Below are positions 5,328-9,768 of a DNA stretch of 64,000 nt, piece after piece. How positions within the stretch are numbered: position 1 is the stretch's first letter; each line of letters opens with the position of its first letter. The stretch spans positions 1 through 64,000 of the forward strand of contig JABLYA010000006.1 in the NCBI GenBank assembly GCA_013177855.1. The letters run 5' to 3'. The position numbers were made by a program, and so were the translations under genes. This stretch comes from Ignavibacteria bacterium (GTDB lineage: Bacteria > Bacteroidota > Ignavibacteria > Ch128b). The notes beneath the pieces are model-generated. The model ran no database searches, was not told the DNA's origin, and was given only the letters and a program-made list of their open reading frames with translations.

Positions 5328-5843
5328 ATGAAAATTAAAAAATTTGAAGAATTAAATGAAGCAATTGGTACTATATCATTACTTAAATTTAGATTATATG
5401 ATAGAACTTACGGACCTGAAGCAAATAAAGCAACACTATCTGTTTATTTAAGACCTGATAATACATTAGGATATTCATATTATGGTGGTTGGCAAGGTTC
5501 TGGTATTGGTTTCGCAATATCTAATTTACAGTTAAAAAAGTCTTTACCGTCTTCTGCTAAAAAGTTTAAAAATGTGAAAGAATTGCAAAAAGAAATCGAA
5601 AGTATATTAGCAACTGGTGTTGGTTCACATTGGATTAAAGAAGTTGAAGAATTAAATGAATTACCATCTGCACAAAAAGAAAAGACTTATGGTGGTTTAG
5701 AAGGAAGAAACAATATAATAGCTAAAATAAAATATTTATCAAATATAGATCATGTTGGTTCTGCTGATGATATGCAGGATGCCTTAGAAGAGATTTATGA
5801 TTTATTAGATAAACATTTTCCAGATATTGAAGAGGAGGCATAA
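5328..5843 (+). CDS. Tagged hypothetical protein (FEELNE N-terminus)
   Basis: 171 aa, beginning MKIKKFEELNEAIGTISLLK. The first ten residues match the F..(F/L)NE tag shared by small proteins here. The middle contains a Gly/Tyr-rich beta segment (LGYSYYGGWQGSGIGFAISN), followed by helices and a very acidic end (FPDIEEEA). No known domain. First of three closely packed genes: the stop is 2 nt before the next ATG, and a strong GAGGAGG ribosome binding site sits inside its last codons. Confidence 0.6.
   Translation: MKIKKFEELNEAIGTISLLKFRLYDRTYGPEANKATLSVYLRPDNTLGYSYYGGWQGSGIGFAISNLQLKKSLPSSAKKFKNVKELQKEIESILATGVGSHWIKEVEELNELPSAQKEKTYGGLEGRNNIIAKIKYLSNIDHVGSADDMQDALEEIYDLLDKHFPDIEEEA
5832..5838 (+). 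promoter_or_regulatory. Strong Shine-Dalgarno GAGGAGG for the gene at 5846
   Basis: GAGGAGG lies 7 nt before the ATG. It uses GAG codons for Glu where this genome normally uses GAA, so it looks selected. Such strong sites are unusual for Bacteroidota, whose genes mostly lack them. A second copy (GGAGGAGG, 6304-6311) precedes the gene at 6319 with the same spacing. Confidence 0.55.
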
Positions 5844-5845
5844 TT

Positions 5846-6319
5846 ATGAAAAATATTTTAAATTTTCAAAGTTTTAACGAAAAGAAAAAATTTTCAGAAA
5901 AAGAAATAGATAATATTCTTGACAAAATGAATAAGGGTAAATCTTTAACAAGAGAAGAAGAATTTATACTTAGAAATCCTGATGGCAAAAAGGAGGATTT
6001 TAAAAAGACTTTAGATTATAAAGATACATTAATTGAAGATATTATATCTAAAGTAGAAAGATATGGTAGTTACATTACTATAAGAGATATGGAAGCTGAT
6101 TCTTCACCTGTATATAAATATGGAGATCAAGAAATTCATTTGATTGAGAGAATTACATCATCTGATGTTGAGGTTGTTATCTATGGTGGATATAAATATG
6201 AAAGTGAATTAGGATCTTATGATGTTAAATATGATGAATTAACCATTGAAACACTTGAAGAAATAAATGATTTGTTAGATCAAGCAATAGAAAATAATTT
6301 ATTGGAGGAGGATATATAA
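5846..6319 (+). CDS. Tagged hypothetical protein (FQSFNE N-terminus)
   Basis: 157 aa starting MKNILNFQSFNEKKKFSEKE, a clear member of the tag family. After the tag comes a basic helix (IDNILDKMNKGKSLTREEEF) resembling the SMR-like or proteolysis-linked segments of core proteins. It continues with a beta section (SPVYKYGDQEIHLIERIT) and an acidic C-terminus. It ends in TAATG overlap with the next gene, so translation is probably coupled. Function unknown; possible internal head protein. Confidence 0.6.
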   Translation: MKNILNFQSFNEKKKFSEKEIDNILDKMNKGKSLTREEEFILRNPDGKKEDFKKTLDYKDTLIEDIISKVERYGSYITIRDMEADSSPVYKYGDQEIHLIERITSSDVEVVIYGGYKYESELGSYDVKYDELTIETLEEINDLLDQAIENNLLEEDI

Positions 6320-6726
6320 TGAAATATATTAAAAAAATAAACGAATTATTTTTAGGTGGAGATAAAGAGCTAATTTATTATGAAACTAGCAAATATTTTA
6401 ATCCAACTACAATTGAAACATCTGATCCAGATGCCATCAGTATAAAACATCAACCAGATGAAATTGGAAAACCTGATATTTTGAAACAAAAGGAATTAAT
6501 TTTGAAAGCATCAAAAATTATTGGTAAAAAACTTTCAACATACGAAAAAGATAGAAAGATTGTTACAAAAGAAATATCAGATTTTATTGAAGCAAATATC
6601 GATAATAAAGAATTAAGTAAAGAAATAGATAAATTAATTGATATAAATAAAATACTTAAGGAATCTAAAAAATGTAATTTATATATATTCGATGGTCTTG
6701 AAAAAACTAATACATTTACAAAATAA
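6319..6726 (+). CDS. Tagged hypothetical protein
   Basis: 135 aa beginning MKYIKKINELFLGGDKE. The opening MKYIKKINE is a shorter variant of the tag. The rest is charged and helical (KELSKEIDKLIDINKILKE) and ends FDGLEKTNTFTK. The start overlaps the previous stop (TAATG) and has a GGAGGAGG site 7 nt upstream. No known family. Confidence 0.55.
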   Translation: MKYIKKINELFLGGDKELIYYETSKYFNPTTIETSDPDAISIKHQPDEIGKPDILKQKELILKASKIIGKKLSTYEKDRKIVTKEISDFIEANIDNKELSKEIDKLIDINKILKESKKCNLYIFDGLEKTNTFTK

Positions 6727-6769: not shown

Positions 6770-7357
6770 ATGGAAAAATTTACAAAAATTAAAAAATTAC
6801 AAGAAATACAATTACAAAAAGAAAAAAATTCCATCATTTATGACGGTTATATAAAAGTCATAAAACAAGATGATTGGGAATTTATTGATGAAAAAGATTG
6901 TGTTGTTTGTCTTGTATATATTCAAGATGAAGGTTATGTTCTAATGCGTAGTGAACCTATACCACCTTGGCAATACAAATATAGAAATAATATTCAAAAA
7001 CTTTCTGGTAAGTTTTTAACTCTTGTTTCTGGTACTATTGAGGAAGGCGAAACACCTCATCAAACATTAAGACGAGAATTATATGAAGAGGCGGGTATTG
7101 TTTTAAATGAATTTTATCAATTTGAAATTGAAGGACCATTTTTTCAAACAAAAAGTAGCTCAGTACAATATTATCTTTGTCTATTAGTTCTTAATTATAA
7201 TGATTATAAAATTGTTACAGCTCCTGGTGATGGTTCAAAAACTGAACAATTATCTAAAACTATAAAAATAAATATTGCTGATTTAGATCATATAAAAATT
7301 AATGATTTAATAAGTAAATACCTTATTAATAAATTAAAAACAGATTTTAACATATAA
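6770..7357 (+). CDS. NUDIX hydrolase
   Basis: 195 aa. A complete NUDIX box spans about residues 88-110: GTIEEGETPHQTLRRELYEE followed by AGI, matching G-x5-E-x7-R-E-U-x-E-E-x-G-U with all metal-binding glutamates. The preceding PPWQYKYRNNIQKLSGKFL and overall size resemble ADP-sugar/NDP-X pyrophosphatases. It would hydrolyse nucleoside diphosphates linked to another moiety (for example ADP-ribose, Ap4A or an RNA cap); the substrate cannot be read from sequence. T4 has a related enzyme, NudE. An ADP-ribose-directed activity would pair naturally with the ART-like gene upstream. The Lys-rich N-terminus is loosely tag-like. Confidence 0.85.
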   Translation: MEKFTKIKKLQEIQLQKEKNSIIYDGYIKVIKQDDWEFIDEKDCVVCLVYIQDEGYVLMRSEPIPPWQYKYRNNIQKLSGKFLTLVSGTIEEGETPHQTLRRELYEEAGIVLNEFYQFEIEGPFFQTKSSSVQYYLCLLVLNYNDYKIVTAPGDGSKTEQLSKTIKINIADLDHIKINDLISKYLINKLKTDFNI

Positions 7358-8188: not shown

Positions 8189-9337
8189 TTATAATATTTC
8201 TACAATTACTTCTGGATAAATATAAAATGTTTTTTCTTTTGGTTCATAAGGGATTTTATTTAAAATATATTTTATTACATTTAATTTAGCAATTCTCTTT
8301 TCATTAGAATCAACTACTACCCAAGGACAATTTTTAGTTGATGTTTTCTGAAACATTTGCTCTTTATATTTTGTGAATAAATCCCATTTAGTCATAGTCT
8401 TTTCATCATTTGGACTAAATTTCCAATATTTCAGAGGATTATTCTGTCTCATTTTGAATCTTAATTTTTGAGTGTCTTGATCAATAGAAAACCAAAATTT
8501 TATAATATAATAACCTTCTTCTAATAAACTATTTTCAAATGGAACTACCTCTTTCATAAAATTTTTATATTCTTCTTCTGAACAATAACCCATGACAGGA
8601 TCATTAACAGCTCTATTATACCAAGAACGGTCATATAATGTCATATGTCCTGGTGCTGGTAATTTTAATTTATATCTTGAAAACCAATCTTTTTTTTCTT
8701 CTTCTGTTGGAATACCAAATGTTGCAATATGACAATATTTAGGATCTAAGAATTCCGTAATAGTTTTAATTACTGAACCTTTACCTGCAGCATCACGTCC
8801 TTCAAAAATAATAACTAATTTATTTTTTGATGTTTTTAACCATTCTTGAAGTCTTAATAATTCAATCTGTAAAGGTCTTAATTCATTAATAAAGTCTTTT
8901 TTACCAACCTTTAATAATCTTTCAGATTTTAATTTTTTCAATTCATCAAACTCTTCATCATTTTCAAATTTATTAGATTTATCTTTAAAATATAATTTTA
9001 TTCTTTTAGGTAATGTTTTAATGTATGAATCAATATATTTCTCTATTCTTGCGTCAGTTATTTTAGGATTTATAGTAAGATTGTGCAAACCTCTGATGAA
9101 TGAGTCTAAGTTTAATTCATATATTGCATCTCTATCAAGAACTTTTTCGAAATTGTCTAATATCCTTTTAATATCATTCTTTTTTAATTTCTTATTAACT
9201 AAAACATCTTCTTTAACATTTAAAATGATTTTTTTTATTTTTTCTTCTAATTTCTTAGGATCTTTAAACATATTTTTAACTAAATCCAAAATAGATTCAT
9301 TAATTGTAAATACTTTGAAGTTCTTCTCTATTGCCAT
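8189..9337 (-). CDS. ppk2: Polyphosphate kinase 2 (PPK2) with N-terminal extension
   Basis: 382 aa. The C-terminal two thirds is PPK2: Walker A EGRDAAGKGS (about 179-188), LPAPGHMTLYDRSWYNRA (Walker B, lid Asp and Arg) and KFWFSIDQDTQKLRF. These enzymes transfer phosphate between polyphosphate and nucleotides, making NDP/NTP from NMP/NDP or storing polyphosphate. About 130 residues precede the kinase domain, more than usual. The extension begins MAIEKNFKVFTINESILDLV, where FKVFTINES looks like the tag of the small proteins, followed by helices. A phage PPK2 could fuel nucleotide synthesis from host polyphosphate, or act in the incoming particle if the tag directs packaging (inference). ATG spacing is normal; the upstream neighbour is convergent. 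Confidence 0.9.
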   Translation of the reverse strand: MAIEKNFKVFTINESILDLVKNMFKDPKKLEEKIKKIILNVKEDVLVNKKLKKNDIKRILDNFEKVLDRDAIYELNLDSFIRGLHNLTINPKITDARIEKYIDSYIKTLPKRIKLYFKDKSNKFENDEEFDELKKLKSERLLKVGKKDFINELRPLQIELLRLQEWLKTSKNKLVIIFEGRDAAGKGSVIKTITEFLDPKYCHIATFGIPTEEEKKDWFSRYKLKLPAPGHMTLYDRSWYNRAVNDPVMGYCSEEEYKNFMKEVVPFENSLLEEGYYIIKFWFSIDQDTQKLRFKMRQNNPLKYWKFSPNDEKTMTKWDLFTKYKEQMFQKTSTKNCPWVVVDSNEKRIAKLNVIKYILNKIPYEPKEKTFYIYPEVIVEIL

Positions 9338-9339
9338 AG

Positions 9340-9768
9340 TTATTCTAATTCATTTTTTCTTATTTTTAGTTTTTTTGTTGTAGTAACTTTCATAACACCT
9401 TCAATAGCAAATCCTTTTCTATAACCTCTGTTTTCTTTATTTTTAACAAAATAAACTTTACCTTGTGAAACAAAAGTTTTTTCTATACCATCAATTGTTT
9501 CATCCTCAGACATATGTAATTCTTTTTCATCTTTTGCAATATAAATAGCGAAATTTGAAAATCCAAATTTATTAAATTTCCACATACAATCCCATTTTTT
9601 TGCTTCACTTCTTTTGTTTGTTATATAGATGTAAGCATCCGCTTGAGATGAATCTTTAACTTCAATTAGAATTAGATTTGCATCTTCTGGAGAAGTCATT
9701 TCAATCATTATTTGAGAAAAACAACAATTAAATAACATTAAAAACAATATAGTTACTAACAATTTCAT
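9340..9768 (-). CDS. Secreted protein, DUF6150-like
   Basis: 142 aa from ATG 9768 (MKLLVTILFLMLFNCCFSQ). The first 19 residues form a signal peptide with a probable cleavage after FS, a typical Bacteroidota pattern. The mature part has KDSSQADAYIYITNKRSEAK, CMWKFNKFGFSNFAIYIAKD and KVYFVKNKENRGYRKGFAI. Short strand repeats of the kind (K..SQAD..IYxT) are found in the DUF6150 family of Bacteroidota secreted proteins. The upstream in-frame extension to 9888 runs through an RNA hairpin and is not coding. Ends 3 nt before ppk2. A phage-borne exported protein may alter the infected cell surface; function unknown. Confidence 0.55.
   Translation of the reverse strand: MKLLVTILFLMLFNCCFSQIMIEMTSPEDANLILIEVKDSSQADAYIYITNKRSEAKKWDCMWKFNKFGFSNFAIYIAKDEKELHMSEDETIDGIEKTFVSQGKVYFVKNKENRGYRKGFAIEGVMKVTTTKKLKIRKNELE

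Follow-up and report, generated by a model that had tools for sequence, protein, structure and literature searches.

For PPK2 enzymes, the residue after the Walker B motif marks the class, with Asn denoting class I, and in the class I enzyme PA0141 the phosphorylation of NDPs is favoured 75-fold over synthesis (PMC8776046). In phage T4, the ten N-terminal residues of the internal protein IPIII are enough for packaging; positions 4 and 7 count for targeting, positions 8 and 10 for cleavage, and the T4 protease gp21 cleaves after L/I-X-E (PMC9026906). Polyvalent proteins combine several domains in one polypeptide, for which injection and processing have been predicted; the paper describing them does not mention polyphosphate (PMC5512222). 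Virus-encoded ppk1 and ppk2 have been reported as expressed auxiliary metabolic genes (AMGs) aiding polyphosphate accumulation; the accessible part of that source mentions no tag, helical domain or packaging (PMC13188868). The largest phage genomes are held by the Mahaphage clade, for which replication in Bacteroidetes was predicted (Al-Shayeb et al., PMC7162821). The largest phages known have not been brought into culture, and the majority of their genes lack an explanation; with a recognisable tag, one could predict which of their proteins travel in the head and are the first to reach the cell.

The gene described here was found in a stretch of 64,000 nucleotides (the window). Its product has the kinase fold, Walker A and B motifs, basic residues and class I Asn of FtPPK2, SMc02148 and PA0141 (36-44% identity in the structural alignment), but adds an N-terminal tag and a helical domain of ~100 residues and belongs to a separate viral clade. 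As in the T4 proteins IPII and IPIII, the tag is short, N-terminal and of the type M..Y..F[IL]xE↓ (arrows mark the presumed cut), and as in T4, the phage has genes for both an S77 (gp21-type) protease and a capsid protein of the Gp23 type. In contrast to the T4 internal proteins, the cargo is a metabolic enzyme, many tags occur per genome, their consensus ends in NE, and protease and repeat scaffold are apparently fused. We consider it fairly probable that this class I PPK2 is packaged via its T4-type tag, trimmed, injected with the DNA and then makes GTP and ATP from host polyphosphate. A literature search of incomplete coverage returned no report of a tagged or packaged PPK2, or of such a tag in Mahaphages. 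A packaged PPK2, if true, would be a metabolic enzyme delivered by the virion, would tie phage infection to the polyphosphate store of the host, and would make it directly testable whether huge phages come to the attacked cell with an energy supply of their own.

Table 1. Features of the PPK2 locus and its neighbourhood (positions in the window).
Feature	Position	Strand	Evidence
Extended class I PPK2 gene, 382 aa	8189..9337	-	Intact ORF; PF03976 1.4e-82; class I PPK2 fold
N-terminal tag MAIEKNFKVFTINE, predicted prohead-protease cut after E14 (TINE↓S)	9296..9337	-	Profile score 12.1; disordered; comparison with T4 IPII and IPIII
Conserved all-helical N-terminal domain of the mature protein plus linker, residues 15-140	8918..9295	-	Model
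PPK2 kinase domain, residues 146-369	8231..8902	-	Pfam match, structure comparison
Walker A GRDAAGKG, residues 180-187 (motif seen as EGRDAAGKG)	8777..8800	-	D182 and K186 invariant in 30 phage PPK2s
Walker B DRSWYN, residues 236-241, with N241 as class I signature Asn	8615..8632	-	Invariant (30-sequence alignment)
Upstream gene, probably same operon, secreted-looking, weak DUF6150 (E 0.0023, below cut-off)	9340..9768	-	
Neighbouring tagged protein, MKIKKFEELNE↓A	5328..5843	+	Tag score 10.2
Neighbouring tagged protein, MKNILNFQSFNE↓K	5846..6319	+	Tag score 9.6
Neighbouring tagged protein, MKYIKKINE↓L	6319..6726	+	Tag score 14.7
Nudix hydrolase, possible weak tag KLQE↓I (by eye only)	6770..7357	+	PF00293 6.9e-9; LR745206 ortholog

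The extended PPK2 protein

Membership of the PPK2 family was assigned with PF03976, which the protein matched with 277 bits at a cut-off of 22.3. The NCBIfam equivalog cut-off of TIGR03707 was missed (295.0 bits against 301.8); this is a curated naming threshold, and the shortfall touches the equivalog name only, not family membership. In a 30-row alignment of phage homologues, D182, K186, D236, R237, R293, R297 and K306 were invariant, which bears out the earlier note in its claim that all catalytic elements are present. Walker B stands in the context YDRSWYN, and N241 was equated with the class I Asn by means of the DRSWYN motif. The nearest solved structures were likewise class I PPK2s, namely Francisella FtPPK2 and Sinorhizobium SMc02148, and the kinase model was superposed on FtPPK2 (5llb) with a TMt of 0.95 and an rmsd of 1.3 Å. 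By its sequence, the window protein is a class I PPK2 with intact catalytic elements and is predicted to be active. Its ATG lies 2 nt past the stop codon of the upstream gene.

About 145 residues lie ahead of the kinase domain. The AlphaFold model of the whole protein (mean pLDDT 83.8) is divided into a disordered stretch at the start (residues 1-22, pLDDT < 50), a helical domain at about residues 27-122 (pLDDT 85-92 over residues 31-110) and, beyond a loose linker, the kinase. A tagged extension of 130 residues had been described before; the tag is upheld for the first ~14 residues, but the remainder is a separate conserved helical domain. Modelled by itself, this domain reached a mean pLDDT of 83, and no solved counterpart was found in the PDB at E ≤ 0.001. 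A PriX-like hit in the N-terminal domain (E 0.0099, below the cut-off) was regarded as chance.

The protein starts with MAIEKNFKVFTINE followed by S, and the starts of close relatives read MINNYGEFLNE↓D (L136), MVDHYDDFLNE↓S, MISNYDNFMNE↓S and MINNFIKFINE↓E. T4 IPII and IPIII start with MKTYQEFIAE↓A (T4 record). Like the T4 capsid-targeting sequences, the tag has aromatic positions ahead of [LI]xE; the spacing of aromatic, aromatic and [LI]xE is identical in L136 and T4, and the window tag has one additional residue between F10 and I12 relative to T4 and its own nearest relatives. In residues 1-22, [LI]xE was found in 40/43 single-domain phage PPK2s (shuffles mean 22.5, max 33) versus 17/79 cellular ones, and [LIFMV]NE in 24/43 (shuffles mean 3.4, max 10) versus 2/79, counts that refer to a short, easily matched motif and to PPK2 relatives which are not independent. 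Some relatives carry a weaker tag or none (L003, L144, L160). Another branch of the phage PPK2s is marked by a second type of start, M.LLNE..RIK.VMG, and L/I-x-E sites occur there too.

Phage genome and descent of the gene

The window covers the initial 64 kb of C6, a phage contig of 212,658 bp (213 kb) in a 3.66-Mb assembly of 10 contigs. C6 has many genes in common with LR745206, a complete huge phage of 634 kb, on both sides of the PPK2 gene. The same applies to C5 and C7, and a few such genes are found on C8 and C9; none were detected in the sampled contigs C3 and C4, and almost none on C1 and C2. Because of these common huge-phage genes, C5, C6 and C7, and probably also C8 and C9, were taken as one genome. 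Judged from gene content, they are probably fragments of a single Mahaphage-like genome, at most about 520 kb in size, that shares a bin with the presumed host; composition also links C5 to C6. The host was assigned from this binning, the MAG being a mixture of phage and host contigs. C5 to C9 place about 0.46-0.52 Mb of huge-phage DNA within a bacterial assembly for which completeness is rated at 100% and contamination at 3.33%. Neither Rfam nor tRNA searches gave a match in the window, and a PHROGs search attempted for structural genes returned little. A ribosomal protein S1-like gene with repeated S1-type segments (by eye) is located at C6:166477-167637(+), followed by a gene for a PhoH-like protein.

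PPK2 homologs in extended form are present in complete huge phages of 735, 642 and 634 kb (86-90% coverage, 41-48% identity). An alignment-based scan of IMG/VR yielded 319 stretches encoding a PPK2 relative, and the best 80 loci comprised about 54-55 distinct proteins, every one of them extended at the N-terminus or fused. The rarity in phages that the earlier note ascribed to PPK2 is therefore not sustained for the huge phages of Bacteroidota type. A tree was calculated from 38 viral and 50 cellular kinase domains, for which 29 of 58 non-Bacteroidota cellular sequences were taken and which did not include L236 and L237, the PPK2s of relatives of the host, as the motif filter had missed them. 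A branch supported at 100/100 divides all viral sequences from the cellular ones, and the window PPK2 is situated inside the viral clade, grouped with L136, L137 and LR756501. The kinase-domain phylogeny proposed in the earlier note thus sets the viral PPK2s apart from cellular PPK2, and they are an old viral lineage and not a fresh capture. PPK2 is a recurrent, old and monophyletic gene of huge Bacteroidota-type phages.

That the gene is host DNA, brought in by misassembly or by recent capture from Bacteroidota, is suggested by the position of the contig in a bacterial MAG, but this explanation is extremely improbable. Besides the window gene no PPK2 was found in the assembly, the flanking genes have huge-phage orthologs on both sides, and the G+C content is 24-26% for the phage DNA versus ~32% for the host. 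Together with the viral clade, this confirms that the gene lies in genuine phage DNA, and misassembled host DNA, named in the earlier note as one finding that would overturn it, was rejected as far as sequence allows. PPK1 is present on C1 of the assembly, and two of five related genomes carry a PPK2.

Tag family, prohead protease and proposed packaging

A loose regular expression for the tag was matched 18 times on C6 alone (shuffles mean 8, max 16). Because this enrichment is weak, a profile from a different phage was adopted, built from tags of LR745206 with PPK2 left out and applied with a threshold of 9 bits; the count within the training phage is circular and was left out of the evidence. 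The window PPK2 (NFKVFTINES region) scored 12.1 bits on this profile. At 9 bits or more, 29/460 ORFs of C5-C7 were found (about 3 in one shuffle) versus 0/240 host ORFs, and none of the cellular PPK2s reached 9. The tag is hence common to unrelated proteins of the phage and absent from the host proteins examined, which agrees with the capsid-targeting-like tag proposed previously.

The protease of the S77 (gp21) type is encoded on C5 (PF03420 above cut-off), as is the Gp23-type capsid protein with a site LNE↓N. In all four phages, the capsid proteins carry EYAExHx[LIM]NE↓N at the presumed end of the propeptide, and the S77 proteases run on into a scaffold-like region with 9-12 tandem EY[IL]AE repeats, each of which resembles the T4 site. 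With such sites in capsid proteins and protease-scaffolds, the cut rule predicted from the tag is also found in proteins that need cleavage. The protease-scaffold gene at C5:58877-61379(-) (L030/L031) consists of two overlapping frames within the tandem EYIAE repeats, and its orthologs are one ORF; the split comes either from an error in sequencing or assembling the repeat or from a genuine frame change.

Sites of this kind bear on the possibility that the tag sends proteins to some other phage-built site, e.g. a replication compartment, its likeness to a protease site being coincidental. For many of the tagged proteins no role in the virion is known, and the tag sequences vary, as this explanation would expect; we nevertheless give it a low probability, as the site agrees with the conserved NE↓N of the capsid protein and with the L/I-X-E rule of T4 gp21, and the spacing in close relatives is that of the T4 capsid-targeting sequence.

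Because its start resembles a T4-type head-loading label, the PPK2 is probably carried into the next host cell with the viral DNA. According to this packaging model, the first ~14 residues would act as a T4-type capsid-targeting sequence by which the enzyme binds the scaffold core during head assembly, and the phage's own S77-type prohead protease would cleave after TINE. The mature enzyme, i.e. helical domain and kinase, would remain amid the packaged DNA and be ejected along with it. In the new cell it would transfer phosphate from polyphosphate made by the host PPK1 to GDP and ADP, so that GTP and ATP become available ahead of phage gene expression and a stress polymer is drained. Injection, which the earlier note had raised, can reasonably be inferred.

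As an alternative, which we estimate to be rather unlikely, PPK2 could be a usual auxiliary metabolic enzyme that is synthesised only once infection has taken place and feeds NTP pools from host polyphosphate, its motif having no role in packaging. The intact catalytic domain would suit such an enzyme, and viral ppk2 is described as an AMG with transcription in sediments (PMC13188868). However, a tag and protease-type site common to PPK2 and dozens of unrelated proteins would then be left unexplained, as would the [LI]xE sites around the PPK2 modules of polyproteins.

The direction of the reaction was considered separately. A packaged PPK2 acting mainly in reverse or as a sink would form polyphosphate from GTP and ATP, or would remove polyphosphate and thereby interrupt stress or defence signals. 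PPK2 enzymes can run in both directions, and some of class I are good polyphosphate makers, e.g. with Mn (PMC8776046), but we regard this as improbable: the 75-fold preference of PA0141 supports the NTP-forming direction, and no sequence feature indicates the reverse. For the packaged, NTP-forming PPK2, a wider reading can be formulated, in which huge Bacteroidota phages fill their heads with many T4-type-tagged enzymes including PPK2, some as protease-cut polyproteins, and draw energy from host polyphosphate before phage expression; here our judgement is evenly balanced.

Two further genes of the phage contigs have starts of interest. At C6:171173-172387(+) (L009:7173-8387), a tRNA nucleotidyltransferase-like protein is encoded, in which an internal Met gives the T4-like start MKTYKRFILEK. 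A DeoC/LacD family aldolase at C7:51289-52041(+) (L228) has a tag-like start ending in RLNE↓A and may be a further packaged enzyme.

Fused relatives and gene neighbourhoods

The window protein consists of tag, helical domain and kinase, and thus does not combine several functional domains in one polypeptide as polyvalent proteins do. Larger fusions occur among its relatives instead (L138, L145, L167 and others). Altogether, 14 distinct fused homologs of 521 aa to at least 2,377 aa were collected, the longest being truncated by the end of its contig. At the N junction of the PPK2 module, [LI]xE[GSQ] was found in 13/14 (1.5 expected), a count that is partly post hoc because the search window was widened after a first look: it had ended at -185, missing sites at -186, and had given 8/14 with [GSQAN], and was then extended to -178 with [GSQ]. 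At the C junction, [LIM]xE was present in 9/9 fusions that continue (2.8 expected). This pattern fits what would be expected of a polyprotein cleaved by the prohead protease. In being predicted to be injected and processed, only these fused relatives resemble polyvalent proteins, with the difference that cleavage is predicted to occur at [LI]xE junctions and to be done by the prohead protease, not by built-in zincin peptidases.

The longest fusion, L138:5245-12376(+), is a polyprotein of at least 2,377 aa, in which PPK2, a peptidoglycan-binding domain and unassigned parts are separated by [LI]NE sites; nine such sites were counted versus 1.7 expected, several at apparent domain joins. In L141:5788-7698(+), PPK2 is followed by an LIIE site and a metallopeptidase-like region with HEMEH. 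Around the PPK2 genes of group A, a conserved gene of ~300 aa adjoins PPK2 at 16 loci (e.g. L013); its ortholog in the window phage is located away from PPK2, at C5:4662-5564. At group B loci (e.g. L170:1327-1953), a conserved gene of ~205 aa (IIKEALE..LDKSLILKE..) directly follows PPK2.
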